Shown here: positions 11,690 through 29,448 of the stretch, piece by piece
Numbering within the stretch: position 1 is the stretch's first letter
Layout: each line of letters begins with the position of its first letter
DNA from: Undaria pinnatifida
Lineage: Eukaryota; Sar; Phaeophyceae; Laminariales; Alariaceae
Direction of reading: 5' to 3'
DNA length: 64,000 nt
Assembly: GCA_012845835.1 (NCBI GenBank)
Contig: JABAKD010000023.1
Location: 26,577,972 to 26,641,971 of the forward strand
The notes under the pieces: generated by a model
What the model was told of the DNA's origin: nothing
Seen by the model: only the letters and a program-made list of their open reading frames with translations
The model's database searches: none
Made by a program: the position numbers and the translations under genes

Positions 11690-12035
11690 AAAAAGCCCAC
11701 TATGTGACGGAATACAAACATGAAGCAAGCACCTGACCAATATATGATGCAACTCGCTACGGCTAAGTGTTGGCGCGAAGTGACACTACGTACAAACACC
11801 AACATCGACGGTACAAAGCAGACCACGATGTGAGGGCATTCAAACACGAAGCAACTACCTAACCAACATGTGATGCAACTCGTTGGCGCGAAATAACATA
11901 GACACACGATACGAAGAAACACAAACGTCGACGTTACGAAACAGCCCACGATGCGAGGGAATACAAACATGCAGCAAAATACCTGACCACCATATGACGC
12001 AACTCACTACGGCTCTGTATTGGCACGAAATTGCA
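11690..12035. repeat. Tandem repeat of about 125-bp units
   Basis: Three units share gcccacgatgcgagggaata, then an acctgaccaa-like stretch and a tgatgcaactc-like stretch. A further partial copy lies at about 13365-13420. No coding sequence is supported. Confidence 0.75.
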
Positions 12036-12048
12036 TATAACTCTTTTC

Positions 12049-12680
12049 CGACCACCTACACGATCGCCTAGACCTAGCACACGCGTATAACAAGCTGCTA
12101 CATATCTTTGATCTTACAGCCGAAGTGTATTTGAATATTATTTGTGACCTAAACCTCCTAAAAATCCCCCCCCCCCCCTCTTGCTCTCCCTTACTCAAAC
12201 GCCCCACCAAATATCAAAATCCGCCACATTAACAAACACTTCACGCACAGGATATCACCTCATTATCTTTCGAGAGCCATCCATGCCGCTGTGTTTCCCC
12301 CCCCCCCCCCCCTCCAACGCCCCTTCTTTCCCGACCACCTGCACGATCGCGTAGACCTAGCACCACGCGTATAACAAGCTGATACATATCTTTGATCTCA
12401 CAGCCGAAGTCTCACAGCCGAAGTGTATTTGAATATTATTTGTGACCTAAACCTCCTAAAAAATCTCCCCCCCCCCCCCCCCCTCTTGCTCTCCCTTACT
12501 CAAACGCCCCACCAAATATCGAAATCCGCCACATTAATAAACACTTCACGCACAGGATATCACCTCATTATCTTTCGAGAGCCATCCATGCCGCTGTGTC
12601 CCCCCCCCCCCGCCTCGAACGCCACTTTCTTCCCCATCACCCGCACCTTCGCCTAGACCTAGCACCACACGTATAACAAA
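12049..12680. repeat. Tandem duplication of a ~290-300 bp unit containing poly-C tracts
   Basis: Units starting with the accacctacacgatcg-like motif begin near 12049 and 12336, with a partial third near 12637. Each unit contains two pure C runs of about 10-17 bases. The motif cacaggatatcacctcatta is identical in both full units. No gene is present. Confidence 0.85.
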
Positions 12681-12689
12681 CCCCTCACC

Positions 12690-12911
12690 TAAAGCCCTTC
12701 CCCCCCCCCCCCCCGCCCCCCGCCCCCGCCCCCACCCCCCACCCTCCCCCCCCAACCCATCCCAACCCCACCCCCTCGAACACTCCACCCTCTCTTTACT
12801 CACTGATTGTACGACTTATCCCAGAATATACACGATAAACTGATGTATTATTTCCAAAAATGTCACATTTATCCCCTCGAAATAATGTATAGTTTCCAGG
12901 CACATATCGAG

Positions 12912-12943
<32 letters not shown>

Positions 12944-13060
12944 GCCCCCAATAATATACTGGTGCCAAAACCGTCAGATTTATCCCCTCGAAAGGATTTA
13001 TAGCTTACATGCACAAATTGCCCCTTTCCCCCCCCCCCCCCGCCCCCCCTCCAAACCCGC
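12690..13060. repeat. Poly-C tract cluster
   Basis: Long runs of C occur at about 12700-12780, 12917-12943 and 13027-13050, separated by short unique stretches that share a tatcccctcgaaa-like motif. On the minus strand these are G runs able to form G-quadruplexes. The glycine-rich and proline-rich ORFs read here are artefacts of the runs. Confidence 0.8.
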
Positions 13061-14253
13061 TCGCTTTTGATCAAAACCAGGCCCCCCCTTTGCCTTCACA
13101 GCTGTCAGATTTTGTCCCCCTCAGAAAAGGGTTTTATAGTTTCCGCGCACAGACTGACTAAAATCATCCTGTTGACCCTGATAGCTACACTGTAGCTGTA
13201 AGGGGAGTCGCCGACCTATATCCTTAATGAGGACACACAACTCGTAATGCGCGCGATCGGAGTATCACACACAGCTTGCAAAGATGAGTTTCGACGAAAT
13301 CTTCGATCTCACAGCTGGAGTGTATTTTAATTTTTATAATAAATACACACGTTACGCTACAAACAAACTCAAACACCACGGTACGAAACAGCCCACAATG
13401 TGAGGGAATACAATCATGCACCAATGTAACGAACGGATAAAGAGCTATTTTAGTCACACGTACCTAAGTCTCCAATCCCTTGTCCCAACTCTCTCACCGC
13501 TTCTAGTTCGTTTCCTCCGTGTCTACCTTCAGGCTGATCCCTCCCGTCTGCTTGTTGCAACAGCTGCCTGCAAACACCAGTCTCGTCTCAGGCAGTCCTC
13601 TTCCAAGCGCTCGTACAATATAACAGATCTCCGGATGAAACCTCCAACAATGCCTCACGGTAACGATCGCTGTACTCAAGCTCGGTTCGCAGTCACTCAC
13701 GCTCGTGTCAGATCAAGTTCAGGTTCCTTTTTCCCTCGTTTGGTTTTGTGTGTTTTTGGACTGAGGCCGTGAGCAGCACGCTTTCTAGACTGATCGGCGT
13801 TATACAGACCTAGGAAGCATTCCGCCACAGGATTTCATGTGACGTCATGTCAATCCACCGCAACACCCCCCCAGCACGGCTTCTCAGGAATACCGTGCTA
13901 ACCGGGCTGCGGATACACTGGAGTAAAAGTGAGGGCCTTTTCCCACACTTAGTCGTGTTTCGATTACCCTAAGGCTCGAATGAGTGGCGTCTAACATTTT
14001 CATGGATAGGCGTCTCTCAGGGGGTAGGGACCCTGGGCCTCGCGCTTGTTTTTTTTTTCGCATTAGGTCCTAGATCGGTACTGCTGGACTTGCTAGTATT
14101 TCTCATCAAGCGCACCAGCTGAAAGCCTCTTATCCACCACTTCCCGGCTTTCCCAATAACCCGGGTAGGCCGAGGCGTTGATCCTCCTCGCTGGTCGATC
14201 TCCGGCCAACGTCTTCTCCCTTTCTCCATCCGCCTCCACTTCACGTTCCACGT
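13061..14253. other. Region 3' of the Gypsy pol gene; no clear LTR found
   Basis: A block near 13242-13284 (gcgcgatcggagtatcacac) recurs at 22149-22190, outside the Gypsy element. On the minus strand a purine-rich stretch (ggagaaagggagaagac) lies about 20-40 bp beyond the pol stop and could be a polypurine tract. A 3' LTR would start just after it. I could not find a matching copy beyond 20.7 kb, so no LTR is called. Confidence 0.45.
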
Positions 14254-17200
14254 TTACGGGGAACCGGATTGCGAATTTCCGGTCCTCCTACCTTTCAGAA
14301 TTTCACGTTTGTTGAGCTCTTCCCAATCTCCGTCTGCGTACCGAACCCGCCAGTACGGTGACTTGTAGTCGAAGACTTTTGAAAGGTGACGCTTCTTGTT
14401 TCCCTCAGCGTCCGCGAATTCCCTCCAGATTACGGTCCCCACGGGGTGTTGTTTCAACGCTTGTTCGCGGTCGATCCCATCTCTTTCCTTCCGCGTTAGC
14501 GTCGAAGTTGGTCTTGCCCGGCACTCCGCTCCGTGATACGTTTCCCACAGCGCATGGAAAACGTCCAGCTGTAAAGGGGTGAAGCTGTCTCGTGCCTCCT
14601 CTTCGGACAGCCACTGCGACTCTGTGCCATCCACGAATTGTCCCTTGCATCGCCACTTCCAAGCGTTGCCTTGACCCATCACAGCCTTTCTGTCTATTAT
14701 TAGAGTATACATAGGCGACGCTACAATCGACGGCTCCGCTAGTCCGAAGTCAACTCCCCATGCCAGGTGAGCAAATTCGTTTTCGAAGTCGTGACGGAGG
14801 TCGTCCGGACGAAAGTGGAACATCTTGATATTCGATGCTGACGCCCGTCGTCGGCGAATCCCTCGCCCATTCATCGTGACGATGTAGCTGAGTCCTGGTA
14901 AGACAACTTCAGTCACCTCCCAAGGTCCGGTCCAGTGCTCGTTGGCTAGTTTATGATGTATCCCTTCCCTTGCCATCACAGACTCCGCCTCCTTCACCAG
15001 CACCTTATCTCCGACAACAACACGGGTGCCTACCGAGGTCTGACCGATTTCAGCATTCCGACTCTCACGACTTTTCTGCCTGTCTTCATGTCTTTTCGAT
15101 AAAGCCATCCGTACATCCCGTACCTCCTTGTACGCTTGACGTTTGTCGGCCACGTAACTGTGCATCCCGCCTCTGAAATCACCACCATCTATCTCAGGGT
15201 GCGTAGCATCAAGTTGCGTGCGTGCATCACGACCGAAGAACAGACGGAAGGGAGTTGGCTTCCCCGGCAGGCGCAGGTCCGGCGTGGTACGATGGATCCA
15301 CAATGCCGGTTGTACGTATTCGTCCCATCTGCGAGGCCAGGTCTTGCACAGTTCTCCTAGTGCTTCGTGTAGCCACCCCCCCAATCTCTCCACCGTCCCC
15401 TGTGCACGTGGATGATCGGCAGGCCCATAGGCGATGGTCACGTTCAACCACTTACATAAGTGTTGCATCACCTCTGCCGTGAACTCGGATCCCGGATCAC
15501 TGCGAACATGCAGCGGTAGCCCAAAAGTAAGCATCACTTCGAGCAGTTTCCTCGCTACTCCGATTGCTTCTTTCGTAGGGAGTGGAAAGGCGAACAAGAA
15601 CTTGCTGGCTTTGTCAACCGCTACCAGTAGAACTTTGTTGCCTGCGTCCGACTTCATCCCCATGTCCTGGATGTCGACTTCGAGTACTTCTCCGGGTCGT
15701 AGAAACCTCGACGGTAGCATGGCAACCCGTTGACTCGCTGACCGCTTGCGACGTCTGCACCCACACGAGAGGACGTAGTCTCTAACGTCCTTAATGAGGG
15801 TGGGCCAGCAGTACCAATGACTAATCAAGGCTGTAGTTCGTGCCGTCCCCGGATGCCCATAGGTGCTGTGCGCCAGCGCCATAATCCCTGGAACGAGAGA
15901 TCGGGGAACTGCAAGTCGTGGGATATTTCCCCGAGGTGCCATCCACAAGAGGCCGTTATCATCCATCACATATTCGCCACCTCCTGATCCTCGGTTTCCC
16001 GCTTCCTGGAGTTCTTTCCAAATCTTGCCAAGTACCATATCTTCGCACTGCCTCTGCATCAGCTGTGGCAAATCCTGGAGAATAGCTGTCACCCTTTCCA
16101 ACATGGATGGCTCTGACCGCTGGGATCCCTTGGCCTCTTTCCCTGATCCGCTTGAACGGCTGCTGGTGTCCTTTGGTGATTCCTCCAACGGATCACGTTG
16201 CCGTTTCGGTCTCGGGATGGGCTCTCTCTGACCCCTGCGTTTGCGTGGGCGATCAACTTCCACTGGTAATTCAGTAGTAGTGACCGTCTGCGCCTTTGCA
16301 TTCTCCATATCCTCCTCCTCAGGTAACGGCGGTTCTGCCTCCCAGACAACCTCCGGTTCCTGGGAAGTGGCCTTTGCCTGCGATCTCGTGACCGCTCTTG
16401 TCACCTCAAAGGCTTTCGATGCTGCGAGGTAATCTTCAAACACCATGCAGGCCAACCCTTCTAGTTCCGCCACCTCTGGTACCGGTTTTCCCAGTAAGCC
16501 TTGAACAGCTAGTTCAACTAATACTGCTCGTGGCATTGGAGGAGACGTGAAATCTGCGATGACGTTTGCCGCTGCGCTTTGGCTAACCGTTTGCGGGATC
16601 ACGTAGTGCTCTTGCCCTGTGGTGATTTTGGCGTAGTCGTTGAAGTGCAACTCTTTGGCTTTTTCAAGGCGTGCCGCATCCGCTGGGTGTGCGATATCCC
16701 ATTCGGTTGGCTTTTCCCCCATGATGTGAGCACGGTTCAGAGAGATGATGGGTTCGTTGAACGAGTAAATCGCTCGCTCTCCGTTACCTCTTTTCAAGAA
16801 GAATCCGCCTCTTCGTCCCAGAAATTCCCCTAATTCCTGAACTGGTTGCTTCACCTTCTCCAACCTCCGCTTCCAAACGGCTAACTTCCTTTTTGTGGCA
16901 AGGCCTCCCTTGATTCCTAGCACGAATGTCCGTTTCCTCCTCCACGGAATCCCTACTTGGCTCGCTAGTATCTCCACTTTGTCCACGATGTATGACTCTC
17001 GTTCCAAAGCGGGGAGAATCTCCTCGTTCCACATCGTCGTTCGCAGAAGGTTGCCCAAACATTCGAGTATGAAAACTCGTGCGTCTGAAGCGATGGCAGC
17101 TTGGGCTAGGCTACTCGCTCCGGACATTCCCTCCTTCTCTCGTATCCCTTCAAACCTCCTGCAGGCGTCACCGACCACTACGTCTGGTTTCACCTCTCTC

Positions 17201-18948
17201 AACATGGTTAGGCATTCCGGCGACCCTGTTGTCACCCTAAGAAGCTTCGCACCTTTGTCCAGTCCGTTTGCTCTGATGCATTCCAGTGCTCTCCAGTCCT
17301 GGTCTACTGCTCCCCTGACCGTCAGCAACCCTTCTGATGCAAGGATGCTGCCTCCCCCCCCACAGTCGAGCATGACCACCACTGGAAACTCCGGTGCAAC
17401 GACAAGCTTGGCCTGTTGAGTATCTGCCTCTGATGGGTCTGTAGGTGTGAGTGCGACGGCTCCAAGTACTGTAAGACTTTGAGTACTAGATCCGTCCACA
17501 TCTTCTACTCCTAAGGTTTCGAGGTGTACGCCGTCGAGCACTGGCCCCTGTGGCCCTTTGTAAACGTTTGGCAACGACTCGTCTCCTGGAAAAGAGTCGT
17601 CGAAATTTTCGATCACGATGCTCTTGTTCGGTAACCGCGACATGGCGTCTGGGAGCTGATGTTGTGTCCCCGGCCTCCACTTCAAGGTTATGTCGTGCTC
17701 CATCAACCTCAGAGCCCAGCGGTGGTATTTCGGTGTGAGAGATTGGCTTTTGAAGAGTCAAGTCAACGCCGAACAGTCCGTGATGAGCGTGAACGGTCGT
17801 CCCCAAAGATAGGGTTGGAATTTGTTTACTGCCCACATGACCGCCATGCATTCACGGTCCGTTGCTGACCTTTTGGAGTCTCCTCTCGACCACCTTTTGC
17901 TGCCATACGCCATCACCTTTTCCACTCCTTAAATGCATTGTGTTAGCACCGCTCCTGCTCCTATCTCACTGCCATCGGTGGACAGCGAGAACGGTTCTGT
18001 CCACACCGGCAGGGCTAGGATTGGAGGTGACGTCAAAGCTTCGATAAGCGCATCAAAAGCTTTGTTCTGCTTTTCTCCCCATGGGACTTTCTCTTTCTTC
18101 GCTCTCTTGGTTCTGAACCTTGGATCTCTCAGCAAGTCGGAAATGGGGGCCACCACCGTGCTATACTGGGGTACGAACTGTCGTAAGTATCCTGTCATTC
18201 CCAGCAACACTCGCACTTCGTCCACCGTGTTCGGCCTGGACAGCTGCGTGATAGCATCGATCTTGCTCGGGGCTGACCTGGTACCAAGTCTATCCACGAT
18301 CATGACGACGAACTCCATGACCGACTGACAGAAATGCGATTTCTGAAAATTTACGGTTAAACGTCCTTGCCTTAGACACTCTAACGTTTCTCGCAGCAGT
18401 ACCCACTGACCTTCAAGGGTTTTCGACGGGATGGCGATGTCGTCCAACCAATTCTTGATTCCCCTATCCTTGACGGTTAACAGTCGCCCTCCAACGTAGT
18501 TGGCAAACGCCGAAGGCACTGTCTTCAACCCGAAGCCGCAGCGAACGTATTCGTACAGTTTTCCGTCAGCGTCTCGAAATGCTGTCAGGTGTCGATCATC
18601 CTCATGGATCTCGAGCTGTAAGAATCCTGAAGCTAAATCGATGCTAGAAAAATACTTCGACCTTTCAATCTCATCCATAATATGTTGCAAGTCTCCGAGT
18701 CCACCACTCTGTGATTTGAGAAGCGCATTGATACCTCGAAAATCCTGTACAACCCGCACTGTCCCATCTTTCTTGCGAACCGTCGAACAATTGGCGGCCC
18801 ACTCGGAAGTTGATTCCCGAATGGATCCATTCTTCAGGAGTTTCACCACCTCAGTTTGAATCATCTCGCGCTGTTCCGGGCTGTAGTGTCGAATGGGGTC
18901 CACGTATGGCTTGACGTTGGGATCTTTGAGCTCCAGTCGCATGGGCAC
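14254..18948 (-). pseudogene. pol: Gypsy pol: RT - RNase H - DNA methyltransferase-like - integrase - Tudor-like, two in-frame stops
   Basis: One frame runs from 18948 to 14254, interrupted only by TAA (17931-17929) and TGA (17760-17758). The RT has FLQLEIHEDDRHLTAFRDA and a WLDD active site in place of the usual YVDD. RNase H begins FSLSTDGSEIGAGAVL and ends LPDAMSRL. In the 1150-residue segment starting at 17706, residues about 105-400 match C5-cytosine methyltransferase motifs: I (MLDCGGGGS), IV with catalytic-type Cys182 (GDACRRF), VI with Glu215 (FILECLG), VIII (IPWRRKRTFVLG) and X (SPPMPRAVL). The integrase has His613/His618, Cys648/Cys650 and a DD35E triad at Asp678, Asp737 and Glu773. 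The C-terminus (YWRVRYADGDWEEL) is Tudor-like. The stops look like a point change in a Gln codon and one in a Trp codon. The retroelement call is certain; methyltransferase activity is not. Confidence 0.88.
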
Positions 18949-20060: not shown

Positions 20061-20141
20061 GCCACAACGTTGCATGAACCCAAACCTGTGACGTCTTAGT
20101 TTGCATTGCTCCCATTTCTGATCGGTGAGAGGAACTCTCTG

Positions 20142-20312
20142 AACCCTGGCTGCTGTTAACCAGTGAACCCTGACTGCTGTTGGCCAGCTGGTTGTTGTTT
20201 GACCAGTGAACCCTGGCTGCTGTTGGCCAGTGATTCCTGCCTGCTGTTGACCTGCAAACCCTGGCTGCTGTTGGCCAGCAAACCCTGGCTGTTGTTGGCC
20301 AGCGACCTTGGC
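20142..20312 (-). repeat. ~27-bp tandem repeat, about six units, coding for Asn/Ser/Gln-rich peptide
   Basis: The unit ccctggctgctgttggccag recurs with small changes. On the minus strand it encodes repeats of the type LANSSQG in one frame and AGQQQPGF in another. It sits between the gag-like region and protease of the Gypsy element. Confidence 0.85.
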
Positions 20313-20329
20313 GCCATCCGAGGTCCCCA

Positions 20330-20683
20330 TCGCGATCTAGGGTTCGGTGGTGCTTCTCTTGGGGTTGTCCGTGGACCCCATCGTCCTCCGATTCCAAACG
20401 GTGACGGTAGGGAGGGAGCGGACATCTGATTGTACCCGCCTCCCGTTCCTACAAGATTTGCCAGTCCTGCTGCCCCTTGTCCTGCACCACCCTGAGGACC
20501 CCATCCAACCTGGCCGCCCTGTGGTGGGCCTCCAGCCTGGCCGCTCTGTGACGGGCCTCCCTGTGGTGGGCCTCCCCTCGGGTAAGGTGCACCAAAAGGT
20601 CCCCAAAAAGGTCCCCCTCTTCCTGCCATGTTATTTCCTCCAATCACTCCTCCCCCCCCGTCCCCTCGGGTAGGGTGCACCAA
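20330..20683 (-). pseudogene. Gag-like low-complexity Gly/Pro/Gln region of the Gypsy element
   Basis: The frame beginning at 20683 is rich in GGPPQGG-type motifs and runs in the same direction as pol. It occupies the gag position but shows neither a capsid fold signature nor a CCHC knuckle. It may be what is left of a gag C-terminus with the 5' part of the element lost. The identification rests on position. Confidence 0.4.
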
Positions 20684-20845
20684 AAGGTCCCCAAAAAGGT
20701 CCCCCCAAAAGGTCCCCCTCTTCCTGCCATGTTATTTCCTCCAATCACTCCTCCCCCCCCGTCCCCTCGGGTAGGGTGCACCAAAAGGTCCACAAAAGGT
20801 CCCCCTCTCCCTGCCATGTTATTTCCTCCAATCACTCCTCCCCCC
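20575..20845 (+). repeat. ~90-100 bp tandem repeat, three units
   Basis: The stretch gtgcaccaaaaggtcccc, followed by ttcctgccatgttatttcct and a C run, begins near 20585, 20673 and 20773. It lies at the upstream border of the recognisable Gypsy element, where the 5' LTR or gag would be expected. Confidence 0.85.
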
Positions 20846-22650
20846 TCCCCGGGACGCCGCCCGTTTCCCTTTGACGAAACCTCTCGCTTTGCTGTCGTGT
20901 AGAGTAAGATGACACGACGGACTCGACGACGCTGTGTTGTATCCGACGAATGGAGCTGTGCAGTAGGAGCTGTGCAGTATGCGACGGACTCGATGAGGCT
21001 GCGTGGTACACGATGTACTCGACGAAGCTGCGTTGTATAAGGTGAAGATGGTATCCAACGATGCAGTCTAGGGAGACGAGTGGAGTCCAGGGGATCGATG
21101 GAGTCTAGTAACACCAAGTTGTCCGCACCAAACGGGTATAAACAGTGGCTTGGGACAAGGTGGGTGGGAAAGAGGGGTGGTGAAAGGTTTCGAGTACATG
21201 CATATTGACCTTCCTGGTTTGTTGAAAGTTGTCCCCTTATCATAATATACATGCAACCCTTCGAAAGCTCAAGTCTTCACTAACAGAGTAAGGTATGGAA
21301 TCCCTTAGGCATCTAAGACACAACACTGATAAATATTAATGTATTCTTCACAAACCCCAAAATTCCAACGTACTTATCACGCTTCCCCCTATTCTAATAT
21401 GATAATGTTCTTGAACCCTGTTTCCAATTCCGGTAAGTTCTTAGCATGACAAAAAACAGCTATAGAAAGGCTTACATTCCCCATACATAATTAAAAACCA
21501 GAACCAGTTTGCAGTATCACTACTCTTGAAACACCTGTGAGAACGACCTTGCAGTACCTATACAACCTGCGAAGACACAAAATCCCCATCACAAAGGCCA
21601 AAACCAAATTGCCTGCAAAAAAACTCTTGCCTTACGGTCGTCTCACAGTATGCAACAAGTGTAGATCAACTAACAGACCCGAACAAATTTTCAACCCGTA
21701 TGATGAACGCAAGCACATCCCTACAGTGACTTATCACGTATGAACTTACTCGTCATCGGCACTGATGATAATCCTTTCCCGATGTCCTATTATTGGTCTC
21801 GTATTATTTAATCTACTTCTTACATTTTATACAACTTAGTCAGCCCTTGCTATATTTTTCCAAAACAACCCAGCCCGTAGATTACGATTTCGCGTAGTAT
21901 AAATACCAACTTGTGTACTATTCTATACAAGGTAAAATAAGCAAGACCAACCTGTATACTATTCTTCCGTACAGCAATTGCTGATCCTCCAGACCAATCG
22001 ATTTCTCATGCTTTACAAGGTGCAACAAACGAGTAACCCCAATAATAACGTCTACATATAATACTCTATACTCACAACCGTACACTATTTTGACCATATA
22101 GTCTATACAGCAGTAGTAGGTATATGTATGAGCAAATGATGTATAATACGTAATACGCGCGATCGGAGTATCACACATAGCTTGCAAAATATATTTTTTA
22201 TTACCACCTGGTACATTATTTTACTGGTTCAACAGTCCATGTTACTCCCTTTTCACCATCCTGCCTACATAAATACCCCCCCCCGACTTGCATTTAGGCA
22301 AGGCTTACTAGCAGGCAGGGATGCATGTATGTCTTTTCCAGTTCAAAATTTTGAAAAAATTGGTTTACGGATATTGTCAAAATTAAAATACACTCCAGTT
22401 GTGAGATCGCATTGTACCATCGCTGCTGTATGCATCCGTTATCGATTGAGTATGTACTGGTACCCGAACAAACAAAAGATATTTTTTTCAGGCAAAATCA
22501 GGTATACCCGTTCAGTTTGGCGTCAAAATTGGTGCAGCACAAAAAAAACAAGAGCATATCACAAACGACATGCAGAACATATGATACGCACGTATACAGC
22601 ACGATAACATACATACCTGGTACAACAATGCAGAAGTACTCGTCGTAAGA
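20846..22650. other. AT-richer stretch without recognisable genes
   Basis: From about 20880 to 21060 short cgacggactcgacg-type motifs recur. From about 21250 to 22650 the sequence is visibly richer in A and T than its surroundings. A block at 22149-22190 repeats 13242-13284. The ORFs are short and unsupported. Confidence 0.5.
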
Positions 22651-24366: not shown

Positions 24367-27291
24367 GTGGGCCCTGTCAACCCTTCTGTGCCCATGGAGG
24401 TTGGTCCACGAGAGGATCAATCAATAGGGAGTGTCCAAAGCGGGTTGGACGGAGACTACGGTCTCCAAGGTGAGCCCGCTGTGACACACGGGAGCCGAAG
24501 ATCTTTTCGAGCTCCCATGAAGATGAATCCACCGCAGCTACGAGACAGAAAGCAGTTTCACATTTTTCAGCAGAAAGTACATACGTATGCGAAGTTCCAG
24601 GACTTCGACAGTGTTCTGTACGCCGAGTCTCATCTCGACGTCGGCGACCAACTCAAATCAAAGAGCGATTTCCTCCGGAAAGGAGTGCCCGAACTAGTTT
24701 ATGAACGGCATCTTAGAGCCTGGTTCTTCCTGGCCCAGGCATTCCACCTAACAATAGATGTCGGGCGTTTCCAACGGAGCAAGTCCCCCGGAAAATGTTG
24801 GGAAGAAACTGTGAAGTACTATTGCCCCAAGAGCACCGGGGATCAAATCTCTCTGCGGAAGACGCTCAGTGATTTTAAAGTCGAAAAGGGAGTTGACCCG
24901 ATCCCGAGATTGTACAATCTCGAGGAACACGTGATGAAAATGCACACTGCGGGTATTGATGTTGATGAACAAACCACCCTCTGCACGTTTGTTGCTGGTC
25001 TGCCTGTGTCGGAGTACTACTTCGAGATACGGCAGCTGAGTCGAAGACTGTCCTTCGACCGGGATGAGGTGATACATACCATCGAATCCCAATACAACCT
25101 TCTGCGCTCTCGGAGGCAGAAGAACTCCGCAGCCCATGCGCTCGTTGTTGACGGGCGTGGTGGGGGCGGGGGACGCGGACACCCTGGCGGGAAGCGCGGG
25201 GGCCGCGGAGGCGGCCGAGGAGGCAAGCACGCCGAGAAGAAGAAGTCCGGCGACGGAAACGGCGCTGAGGACAACAAGCCTGCGGCAAAGGGACCGCAGT
25301 GCTACAAGTGTGGGCTTCGAGGCCACTTCGCCCGCGACTGCACCACACAGCTCTGCAAGCGGTGCAACGGTCGGGGGCACGACGAGGATAAGTGTCCTTC
25401 GTCTACCGACATGCACGCCAACATGGTGATAGAGCTACCTGAACCGCCGGAGTCGGACTCAGATTCAGGATCGACGACTTCGAGTTGCGTCGCGTCTGGG
25501 CTTATGGCGGTGGAGCTGGATCATGCAGGGTGTGGGTACCAACCAGGCAAGTGTGATGATGGTGGTCCAATCGGTGGTGTAGGGGAACTGGCTCTGCAGG
25601 CCGGGGTTAAATCGGAACGTTGGCACTTTGATACTGGAGCCTCGGGCATCTTTACCCGTAGCTCCGAGAAAATGACTAACTTCCGACCATGCAACAAGCA
25701 AATTAGCGTTGCTGGTGGCGGTAAACTGCTTCGCATAAAAGGTCTAGGCGACCTTACCCTCGAATTCCCTTCGGACGATGGCCAACCTGCCATGCGCATG
25801 GAGTTCAAAGAAGTAGGGCTCTCACCTGAGCTTGATTTCAACCTCATTTCGGTGTCGAAGGCCGTCAAACATCGGTACAAGTTTAGCATCGATGACCCCG
25901 GACTCACCATCCACCAAAAAGATACTGGTCAAGAAATCCTATTGCCCCCTTACGGGGACATGTACGTCGGACATGGCCGTAGGGTGGATGGCAACGAGAT
26001 AGCCTGCGCAGTTCTTACACCCGGGCGTATGCCCACCACCGATGTGGATATTAACCACTATCATCACACTGCCTCCCACACCCACCCCCGTTTGTTGAGG
26101 AAATCGGCGGAGCAGCAAGGCGTCAAGCTGAAACCTGGGGTGAAGCTGCTCCCGTGCGTGGGATGTTCAGCAGCGAAAGGGTACAGCGCACCGGTGCCCA
26201 AGTCCACAAACTCTCGTTCAGATAAGAAAAACGGGAGAGGTTTCGTTGATTCGACGGGGAAGAAGCCTGTCGCTTCGATCGGTGGAAGCCTCTATGGTAT
26301 CATTTTTCGTGACGATGCCACACGAATGTCGCGGGAATACTTCATGAAATCAAAATCTGAAGCCCCGGCAAGGCTACTTCAGTACATCGCTGATACTAGC
26401 CAGGATGGTCTGATAGGAATCATCCGTTCTGATGACGCGCCTGAACTGATGTACGGAGAGTTTGCCGAGATCTGCAACAAAAACGGAATCAAGCGCGAGT
26501 TTACGTCAGCGAGCACACCGCAGTTGAATGGTGTAACAGAACGTGGGCTAGCACTTATCGAGAAGTTAGCCAAGACGTCGATGATCCAGGCAAAATCGTC
26601 TTTCGTCGGCCAAGATTTGCCGTCGACGGAGCGGCTGTGGGCTGAAGCTCATCATTTTGCCTGCGACAATCTCAATCGCACTGCTACGACCTCAAATAAA
26701 GACATGAAATCTCCCTACGAGATGTGGCACGGCAAACCACCGTCGCCGACGTTGGTGCAGTGGCTCCAACCATGTTTCTTCAAGACGAAGAGAAAACACG
26801 AGTGCGACCCGCAAGCGGAACCGGGATTTTATCTCGGGCCCGCAGACAACCATCCGAGGGGACCATGTCGTATCCTGTCGAAAGCAACTCACCAAATTCA
26901 CCTCACCCGTGATGTCACCTGGCATCATGTCCCGACCCCTGCCCCCTTGCCAGCCTATCAGCAGGCACCCCCTACACCCGTTGAAGGGAGGGGGCATGAC
27001 GACGAGACCGCCGTCGGGGGCAGGGAGGGCACACCACTTCAAGGTGGTGGGGGGGATGATGACGCTTCGGACAGCGATGACGACCTCTCAGTGGAGTGGG
27101 AAGACGAGACACACGATGCCAAGGATGTCAACGTCGCCGCCGGCAGAGCACCGGAGACGACCGAGCCGACAGGAACTCCGTTCCAGGGGACCAACCCCTC
27201 CGCGGCAGTGTCTCATGAAGGTTCGTTCGGGGACGATGGTGGTACCACCCCGAGCAGCAGCAACCAGCGCAGAAGCCGAAGTCGCAGAGGC

Positions 27292-27346
<55 letters not shown>

Positions 27347-29448
27347 CCAACACCAACAACAGCAGCCGTGGCAGCGGACATGGCGACGGTGGCAGCGCCG
27401 ACGGTGGCGGTGGAGGCACTGCCGGTGACTCCGCCGGTGACATCAATCTTGCCGGCTATGCACCGCTCCCCCCCGAACTGCCCAAAGGTGAAGCGGGACG
27501 GCTGCAGAGCTGGGGTAGGCACGGTGACCTGATCACATCGTCGAGACTGAGATCCGTGCGCAACCGCCTCCATGAGGTACCCAAAGAACCGAATACTGGA
27601 GGCAATACGGCCCTGCTGGTCTACATGAAGGCGCTGGTGACGGACTTCATCAACGGCGAACTGGAAGCTGAAGAGATGCAAGAAGCAGAAGAGTTCATCA
27701 ACGGCAACGCATGCGATGATCTCCTGGACTCGCTGGCAACGAGTGCGACTGGTTTCGACGACCACGAGTCAGCATCTAACGTCTTCTCGCTAATGCACGA
27801 CACCGCGATCGACGAGCCCGAGATCGCTCTGGTCACCATGGAATCAGGGAAGTCCGAGTCTGAAATTGAAATGCCGTCTGGTCCTTTGTCAGAAGCTGAA
27901 GTACCTCCGATCTCCGTAGCTGGCGTGTACAAACCTAAATACAAAGACGCGTACCTTTGGGCTATGGACAAGGAAATGGATGGTATTGTGAAGAATGGGA
28001 CATTTACTGTTTTACCTGGCCTTCCGGAGGGGGAGAAAGCAGTAGATGGTAGGTGGGTGTTATCACTGAAGTCCGACGAAAACGGATACATTACTACACC
28101 CAAAGCGAGGCTGGTAGCAAAAGGGTTTATGCAACGGGAAGGCGTGAACTATCTCCAGACATACGCACCTACACCCGCCACTACTGGTGTCAAGATTGTG
28201 CTAGTGTGGGGGAACCACAAGGGGTACACAACGTCTCATTTCGATGTCAAACAGGCGTTTACCCAAGCACCGCTAGACTATAAAGTCATTATGAAGCTCC
28301 CTGGGGGTTGCGGTGACCTGTCTGGCAAATACGTAGAGCTCAAGAAGGCGTTGTACGTCCTAAAACAGAGCGGTGCCTTGTGGAACAATTTGCTGGTTAC
28401 GAAACTAGCGAAACACGGCATGGAACAGTGCAAAGCCGACCCTTGCGTTTTTCGGAAGATTGTGAAGGGTGAGGTAATACTGGTTCTGGCAGTCCATGTG
28501 GACGACATGGCTGTAGCCGGTCCTAGGGATGAGGTTGACAAGCTGCTTGTAACGCTCAACGAGGACTTCACGACGGTTGACCTGGGAGAACTAACCTTCT
28601 TCACGGGGTGTGCGGTTATCCAAGACGTAAAAGATGGGATAACTAAAATAAACCAGCGGACATTCATCGAAACATTGGCTAGAAGTTTTGATGTGACAAC
28701 GACTGCCCGATACCCCGCCACTGCCGGTGCTGACCTAGGACCGAGGAAGGAAGGGGAACCAAGTGGAAATTGGCCTTACAAGGAGGCCATCGGATCATTG
28801 CTATGGCTGGTCGTCTGGTCAAGAATGGAGATTGCGAATGCGACGCGTGTTGTAGCTCGCCACGCGAACAACCCTACCGAGAGGCACTGGACAGCGGTGC
28901 TACAGATCATTCGATACTTGCTCGGTACCAAGGACCTGAGCCTCACGTTCGAAAGGGAACCTGAGTCTGACTTTGAATTGTCGGTGTACACGGATTCGAA
29001 CTTTGCCGAGAAGGATGACGACAGGCGTTCCGTATCGGGGGTAGCTGTATGCCTAGGTTACTCCATGATTACCAGATTCAGTTCGACTCACAAGACCACG
29101 TCGCTTTCGACCGCCGAGGCAGAGTACCGTGCGCTCGGTGATGGAGTGAAGGAGGGTCTATTCGCGAAATCGGTAGCTTCGTTCGTAGCACCATCGCTTG
29201 TAGAGAAGACAATTATGGTATATGTAGATAACGAAGGGGCAATCAACCTTGCGATCAACCCATTCAGCTCTGCAAGAACCAAGCACCTTGATGTGAGGTT
29301 TCATTTCGTTCGCGAGCTGGTATCGTCTGGTACGATCACGGTTGAACATGTTCCGACAGCGGAACAACGGGCAGATCTTTTCACGAAGGCGCTCGTAGGC
29401 CCTACCTTCAGGGAGCACAGGGACTACCTGATGAACTCTTACATTTGA
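24367..29448 (+). CDS. Ty1/Copia Gag-Pol polyprotein (1693 residues)
   Basis: A single open frame encodes the whole replication machinery. The gag has two zinc knuckles: CYKCGLRGHFARDC from residue 313, and a CKRCNGRGHDEDKC-type one from about 330. The aspartic protease has WHFDTGASGIF (Asp422). The integrase carries a VDS-type first Asp, Asp689 (IRSDDAPEL) and Glu725 (VTERGLAL), a DD35E arrangement. A Ser run coded by AGC repeats lies at about residues 977-995, in the linker between integrase and RT. The RT has FDVKQAF and the HVDD active site (Asp1379-Asp1380). RNase H has YTDSNFAEKDDD (Asp1543), STAEAEY and VDNEGA, and the protein ends near RADLFTKAL. The 24367 start is simply the beginning of the open frame after a TAG. 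All catalytic motifs are present, so the element may be competent apart from its N-terminus. Confidence 0.95.
27292..27345 (+). repeat. (AGC)n trinucleotide repeat coding for poly-Ser in the Copia polyprotein
   Basis: About 18 consecutive AGC codons lie in the integrase-RT linker. The run keeps the frame and is probably length-variable between copies. Confidence 0.9.

Follow-up and report, generated by a model that had tools for sequence, protein, structure and literature searches.

The window analysed here is a 64-kb stretch of the Undaria pinnatifida genome (C30:26577972-26641971; the genome searched comprises 511,146,479 bases in 68 contigs). On its minus strand lies one copy of a Ty3/Gypsy long terminal repeat (LTR) retrotransposon, whose Pol polyprotein holds, between RNase H and integrase, an additional domain of about 300 residues that is homologous, as judged by profile comparison, to C5-cytosine methyltransferases (PF00145). 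An initial annotation, made from the letters of the window, had proposed such a domain at this position of a brown-algal element, and profile homology confirms it. On balance, we favour the reading that the captured domain no longer writes ordinary 5-methylcytosine (5mC) and has been kept in Pol as an accessory, dispensable binding module. The window copy belongs to a subfamily termed A; a second subfamily with the domain (B) and a group of relatives (C) are described below. The element is laid out as follows, in its reading direction.

17929..18948, minus strand: reverse transcriptase (RT) and start of RNase H, 339 codons (PF00078, 1.1e-15; PF17919, 1.8e-11)
14254..17706, minus strand: second half of Pol, 1150 codons, with RNase H tail, methyltransferase-like domain, linker, integrase and C-terminal Tudor-like segment
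16492..17394, minus strand: C5-cytosine methyltransferase-like domain, 301 amino acids, frame residues 105-405 (hhalign, PF00145, PHROG)
14797..15936, minus strand: integrase, H2C2 zinc-binding region and rve core (PF17921, 1.2e-12; PF00665, 6.9e-10)
14299..14379, minus strand: C-terminal Tudor-like segment, PTM_DIR17_Tudor (E 0.0013, 18.9 of 27.2 bits, below the cut-off)
13425..13865, minus strand: 3' LTR, about 441 bp, TG...CA, placed by the homology edge across A copies

RT and the 1150-codon frame of the window copy share one reading frame, with two in-frame stops between them. Copy L029 has an uninterrupted Pol of 1694 amino acids, and some other copies likewise have a continuous Pol frame. 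The order in L029 is RT, RNase H, methyltransferase-like domain, integrase H2C2, rve core and a weak C-terminal Tudor match (PF21743 matches reach E 0.0013 and 0.0028, both below the cut-off). The integrase matches those of Ty3 and PFV in the PDB, the best match being Ty3 Pol. Likeness to other A copies stops at 13423-13425 in 19 of the 19 copies fetched at 9.9 kb, six of which have separate short matches beyond this edge. The LTR is present twice in copy L027, the two versions being 96.8% identical over 444 bp and lying at either end; for the window copy no 5' LTR was found within the 64 kb. The LTRs and the Pol order RT-RNase H-integrase identify the element as a Ty3/Gypsy LTR retrotransposon.

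The domain contains, in this order, MLDCGGGG (motif I), AVDQD (II), VVGDACRRF (IV), FILECLGNLL (VI), SQVGIPWRRKRTFVLGI (VIII) and a motif X-like tail; motifs I, IV, VI, VIII and X had been read in the same order by the initial annotation, and its letters are found again in the 1150-codon frame. For profile comparison, 17 element copies were combined into profile A2, and A2 together with subfamily B into A4. Both were aligned to A3, a profile of ten C5-methyltransferase sequences (Escherichia coli Dcm and nine phage relatives, one of them annotated merely as hypothetical) that recovers M.HhaI in the PDB at 4.7e-81 as well as DNMT1 and DNMT2. Alignment of A2 to A3 by hhalign gives a score of 53.9 (p = 5e-7) over 258 columns, placing query residues 4-295 on template residues 1-298 of 303, against 26.4 for the best of 60 column shuffles and 18.4 for the reversed profile. 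A4 yields p = 1.1e-7 over 280 columns in the default run and, under the settings of the shuffle test, a score of 54.0 against 28.6 for the best of 200 shuffles. Moreover, the three thirds of the domain align in register when taken alone (p 0.066, which is weak, 1e-5 and 0.011), as does subfamily B alone (p 0.0016).

Family searches point in the same direction. When the 301 residues are taken out of the frame and scanned, PF00145 (E 0.0014) ranks first among 24736 families. The profile search proposed by the initial annotation finds PF00145 at E <= 1 in 12 of 17 copies scanned singly, with a best value of 8e-5 against 0.081 for any other family, and at E <= 0.1 in five of ten public proteins scanned (best 1.5e-4). 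In the genome, seven places of the element family exceed the curated PF00145 cut-off, one of them spanning profile positions 8 to 181. PHROG families named 'DNA methyltransferase' match three of three copies (3.4e-4 for the window copy, 0.0015 and 0.05). Several results weigh against this assignment: the default realigned run of A2 against A3 keeps residues 5-167 only (motifs I-VIII); at 18.6 bits, or 15.7 when left in the complete frame, the window copy alone stays under the PF00145 cut-off of 22 bits; five of the 17 copies give no PF00145 match at E <= 1; the NCBIfam dcm match reaches 0.056; and neither the domain by itself nor A2 found a methyltransferase when searched by sequence against the PDB. 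We take motif VIII to be of the Dcm/DNMT1/DNMT2 type, which speaks against the Dnmt3 class. As to origin, no Pol-length relative was present at E <= 1 in a set of 5.8 billion proteins, and the viral contigs searched with the domain gave no match; thus, a viral donor was not found.

The motif residues were compared in 33 A copies, namely the window copy and 32 loci holding most of the domain, which were picked by hand and by score and are biased to long matches.

17350..17373, minus strand: glycine loop MLDCGGGG resembling motif I, on whose region it falls when A4 is aligned with A3
17158..17172, minus strand: motif IV-like GDACR (usual PCQ), Cys kept, Pro lost
17056..17067, minus strand: motif VI-like LECL (usual ENV), Glu in A, Gln in B
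16912..16956, minus strand: motif VIII-like VGIPWRRKRTFVLGI (usual GVPQRRERVFIVG), K154 in 33/33 and R155 in 32/33 A copies
16552..16608, minus strand: motif X-like tail HYVIPQTVSQSAAANVIAD, the C-terminal third alone being in register with template 258-298 (p 0.011)

At the S-adenosylmethionine (AdoMet) loop, DCGGGG is present and the F of FxGxG is not kept; D10 and C11 occur in all 33 A copies, and the acidic residues after the glycine loop, D31 and D33, are conserved across A and B. The domain thus has the AdoMet loop and the following acidic residue of C5-methyltransferases, and may bind AdoMet. Pro-Cys and Glu form the catalytic core of C5-methyltransferases. The motif IV Cys is found in 29 of the 32 A copies with a letter at this position (Arg in two, Trp in one), and the residue before it is Ala in 30, Thr in one and Pro in one, the Pro copy being frame-broken. 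This Cys, Cys78 of the domain, is no better conserved than an average site, 24% of sites being at least as variable, which counts against our favoured reading. Subfamily B reads Ala-Cys in nine of nine sequences. Motif IV is ACR or ACL in A and B, not PCQ: of the Pro-Cys pair, the Cys is kept and the Pro lost. Motif VI has Glu in 33/33 A copies (ECL) and Gln in 8/8 B sequences that reach the motif (QCL, QCT or QCI); these eight are three genomic and five public sequences, of which at least three public ones resemble the same loci in another assembly, the independent number being nearer five. Since the Glu was lost in B while the fold persists, the selected function would not be ordinary methylation, at least in B. 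Together with the loss of the motif IV proline in A and B, this suggests that the domain most likely no longer writes ordinary 5mC.

The methylation context of the host was examined along with the domain. In the sections of PMC13076208 that treat DNA methyltransferases, brown algae, Undaria among the profiled species, are described as lacking DNMT1, DNMT3 and DNMT5 and keeping DNMT2 alone, and Schizocladia, from the sister lineage of brown algae, as having DNMT1 and abundant CG methylation. A passage of PMC12344493 weighs against a clean loss, mentioning early-branching brown algae with DNMT1, contrary to PMC13076208. The element copies themselves bear no trace of germline CpG methylation: transitions per site and copy among 18 copies are not in excess at CpG (148/10179 = 0.0145, compared with 434/29047 = 0.0149 at other C/G), and the depletion of CpG is slight, with observed/expected values of 0.95 for the window and 0.87 for the domain. 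Outside the element family, PF00145 at E <= 0.01 finds in the genome only two broken open-reading-frame fragments at C33:9.58-9.60 Mb (L060, C33:9584045-9584356, 4.3e-8; L061, 9595022-9595297, 4.6e-10), which adjoin a weak MYND-finger match (0.074) and are possibly an old viral insertion; no relative of L061 was found in viral contigs. A decaying host gene was considered as the source of the domain and set aside, because the genome search outside the element yielded just these two fragments. The host DNMT2 was not seen in this exon-wise PF00145 search, which misses intron-split genes, so that its silence is weak.

Against this background, it appears unlikely that the A-type domain is a working C5-methyltransferase with a non-standard motif IV that acts on element cDNA or RNA before integration, leaving a mark that would be transient in a host without maintenance enzyme. 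The active site itself supplies arguments for such an enzyme: Cys and Glu are both retained in subfamily A, which counts against loss of catalysis there, and the glycine loop and the acidic residues behind it are conserved. Further, two SymbioDIRS-Dnmt3 methyltransferases methylate CG in yeast according to the relevant part of PMC5890265, and the kelp Saccharina japonica is credited, in the parts of PMC6916402 on this subject, with about 1.4% 5mC, mainly CHH, in spite of lacking DNMT1/3, which is ascribed there to DNMT2. On the opposite side stand the loss of the proline before the catalytic Cys in A and B, the change from ENV to ECL, the lost Glu in B, and the negligible 5mC of Ectocarpus given in the section of PMC12477816 on methylation. 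The missing CpG transition excess also speaks against activity, though a transient or non-CpG mark need leave none. The suggestion in the initial annotation that an active modifier protects or silences the element has nothing in its favour that we could see, given the lost proline of motif IV, the Gln in place of Glu in B, and copies that lack a CpG scar.

How the domain has been maintained can be read from the changes among the 33 A copies. Amino-acid-changing and silent changes stand at 32:34 when shared by at least three copies, at 93:34 when shared by exactly two and at 361:131 in singletons, so that the widely shared class is depleted in amino-acid changes relative to singletons (Fisher p 7.9e-5). 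The site-corrected ratio for widely shared changes, from 18 copies in which every segment is present, is 0.35 in the domain, 0.30 in the RNase H tail, 0.24 in the linker, 0.12 in integrase, 0.10 in the C-terminus and 0.09 in RT; the domain differs from RT with p 0.07 and from integrase with p 0.12. On the longer time scale, the domains of A and B differ at 0.76-0.80 of silent sites (pS), which is saturated, and at 0.39-0.42 of amino-acid-changing sites (pN; L041, L070, L071). In every segment pS is at least 0.74 and thus saturated or nearly so, and pN of RT and integrase is 0.24-0.35.

Two counts point away from constraint. The two-copy changes look as unconstrained as singletons, and parsimony on internal branches gives 46 changing to 18 silent changes in the domain, a ratio of about 1.05, compared with 0.22 in RT. 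On a star-like tree such as this one, alleles of about half frequency enter the parsimony count repeatedly, and we trust allele sharing more; the two counts nonetheless leave room for recent relaxation. Taken together, the domain has been under purifying selection for long, which looks weaker than that on RT and integrase. In the comparison with RT and integrase suggested by the initial annotation, allele sharing indicates purifying selection of seemingly lesser strength, and the parsimony ratio near 1 does not. As for the other possibility raised there, that the motif residues might be random across copies, the Glu in 33/33, the Cys in 29/32 and the depletion of amino-acid changes in the class shared by at least three copies show otherwise.

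The domain occurs in two diverged subfamilies. Subfamily A accounts for at least 137 domain match rows in the genome, some loci being split over several rows. Subfamily B, about 40% identical to A in the domain (36-41% over 265-293 residues), occupies 14 distinct places at >=60% identity to the best B copy, and its element L041 has the same order RT-RNase H-methyltransferase-integrase-C-terminus. A genome search with the integrase gave at least 110 rows and revealed group C, which is 60-63% identical in integrase. Among the matches listed, none of the 19 group C rows examined has a domain match within 2.5 kb upstream of its integrase, compared with 42 of the 50 rows of A; an additional row, 58% identical, has an upstream domain match and belongs to B.

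The distance between RNase H and integrase was taken from the coordinates of RT-RNase H and integrase matches alone, at 60 paired places among the matches listed. On these coordinates, which stand in for the sequence of the intervals and to that extent weaken our case, the interval is 447 bp in 4/4 group C elements measured. In subfamily A it is 1380-1600 bp at 38/56 places (typically about 1485 bp), 724-801 bp at 10/56 and of other lengths at 8/56. Group C therefore lacks about 1 kb, which is the size of the domain. Its four elements (C24:2234398-2237331, C27:18742074-18745004, C24:10761292-10764225 and C43:749974-752916) have open frames of 1645, 1643 and 1377 amino acids and one of 815-961 amino acids with a stop, none with a domain match among those listed. 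The shortened A elements include C61:10044608, C32:18062021, C13:11099785, C22:21932128 and six more. Four of these elements, each on a contig of its own, share an interval of exactly 768 bp, so that one shortened form seems itself to have spread. One of the ten (on C56) retains domain residues 195-301; the other nine have no match among those listed. Since the domain would not fit into the group C interval and some A elements miss about half of theirs, it is not needed for spread and is dispensable for the element. RT and integrase divergence between A and C is about equal to that between A and B, so that gain in A and B and loss in C both fit.

It is improbable that the domain is no more than a passenger, taken up in the distant past and now a decaying relic with little or no function. 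The distribution speaks in favour of a relic, with the domain missing upstream of all 19 group C integrases, no room for it in the four intervals measured, and about half of the interval gone in ten of 56 A elements; so do the active-site changes in A and in B, the parsimony ratio near 1 and the constraint weaker than on RT and integrase (0.35 versus 0.09 and 0.12; p 0.07 and 0.12). Against a decaying passenger speak the identity of A and B over 265-293 residues despite saturated silent sites, the depletion of widely shared amino-acid changes, and a domain frame that is open in many copies. That an accessory domain without methyltransferase kin resembles the family by chance is very improbable: the sub-threshold score of the window copy, the empty PDB sequence searches and the five copies without PF00145 match are outweighed by a collinear profile match far above 260 shuffles, by register in B and in each third alone (weakly in the first), by the first rank of PF00145 and by the PHROG match.

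Relatives also occur in public protein sets, where the A and B profile finds 57 matches at E <= 0.1, seven of them B-like. Member sequences on short contigs number 133 for P0016 and 91 for P0019, and P0016 (434 amino acids) covers the second half of the domain, the linker and the integrase zinc-binding region. The string at the end of P0016 is presumably adapter read-through of transcriptome assemblies, which would hint weakly that the element is transcribed.

Towards its outer parts, the element has short tandem repeats upstream, at 20140-20890, spaced by 24 nt and by about 100 nt; likeness ends at 20139-20140 in several of the 9.9-kb copies (L027, L030, L031, L034 and L046). A few hundred bases past the 3' LTR, at 12100-13070, lies a tandemly repeated stretch with many poly-C runs, and GC skew is strong over 12001-14000 (-0.40). 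On the plus strand, an open frame of 1693 amino acids at 24367-29448 resembles, by eye, a Ty1/Copia Gag-Pol.

Returning to a non-methylating, accessory domain as the favoured explanation, we envisage the following course. A C5-methyltransferase domain would have been captured between RNase H and integrase in an ancestor of A and B within this family of kelp Ty3/Gypsy elements, whose tail is Tudor-like, and then inherited with Pol; in the alternative direction, the domain would be ancestral and lost in group C. The proline of motif IV was lost in A and B, and the glutamate of motif VI in B as well, with which ordinary 5mC writing most likely ceased. The fold may have remained useful in Pol, and moderate purifying selection would keep it there. 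Most plausibly, the domain binds nucleic acid, be it freshly made cDNA or target DNA, and it may bind AdoMet too; it would act beside the integrase and a probable chromatin-reader tail. This job would be helpful rather than required, given the group C interval, which is too short for the domain, and the A elements in which about half of the interval is gone.

More tentatively, the element may have taken a captured DNMT into the period when brown algae lost DNA methylation, or past it, and remodelled it as a Pol module that does not methylate, a fossil of a lost epigenetic system that two subfamilies keep, with different active-site changes, and other members do without. An altered active site in two subfamilies, together with members that lack the domain, offers a natural series for asking whether the use of such domains depends on methylation. 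Moreover, counts of algal DNA methyltransferases made by Pfam cut-off miss most copies of this kind, or may take a few of them for host genes. To our knowledge, few retrotransposons with cytosine methyltransferases are known, and the role of the domain may be self-methylation, camouflage or another.

Uptake of additional enzymatic modules into Pol has occurred repeatedly in Ty3/Gypsy elements, as in the dual RNase H elements Tat of plants and Chronos and Archon of oomycetes, described in the relevant part of PMC5348765; there, the extra module is an RNase H. Within brown algae, the pertinent sections of PMC12477816 describe two Ectocarpus elements that each share part of the kelp architecture. 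Sola1-1_Ec32 is likewise a transposon with an accessory DNA methyltransferase domain; it differs in being a DNA transposon, and its enzyme, a fusion with a ParB-like domain, has N4-methylcytosine or N6-methyladenine as the predicted product. Gypsy-10_Ec32 is a Ty3/Gypsy element with a C-terminal Tudor domain and belongs, by description, possibly to the same broad lineage; the passages on it make no mention of a cytosine methyltransferase. The Tudor-tailed Gypsy lineage is placed there in Ectocarpus and Tribonema.

Retrotransposon-borne DNMTs, for which the initial annotation had named dinoflagellates and a charophyte as precedents, are indeed found in both, as set out in the parts of PMC5890265 devoted to them. 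SymbioDIRS-Dnmt3 and SymbioLINE-Dnmt of Symbiodinium carry a DNMT, in Pol in the case of SymbioDIRS; in contrast to the kelp element they are of the DIRS and LINE class and keep the catalytic residues, and two SymbioDIRS domains are active in yeast (PMC5890265). Closest in architecture is KnitGypsy-Dnmt3 of Klebsormidium nitens (de Mendoza et al. 2018, PMC5890265), an LTR Gypsy element with a cytosine methyltransferase domain in Pol, many copies and purifying selection. The position highlighted by the initial annotation is accordingly noteworthy for a brown-algal element and not unique in kind. KnitGypsy-Dnmt3 is of the Dnmt3 class, has conserved key residues and lives in a host with ample 5mC, and the activity of its domain in yeast was inconclusive, as far as the same source describes it; the kelp domain, in contrast, has altered motifs IV and VI, and its host group is reported in the sections of PMC13076208 cited above to be without DNMT1/3/5. 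In a search of titles and abstract beginnings, no brown-algal retrotransposon was described as carrying a cytosine-C5 methyltransferase domain, although such a report may be in print. While a DNMT in Gypsy Pol was already known, what is new is a degenerate one, in a Gypsy element of a host group reported to lack DNMT1/3/5.

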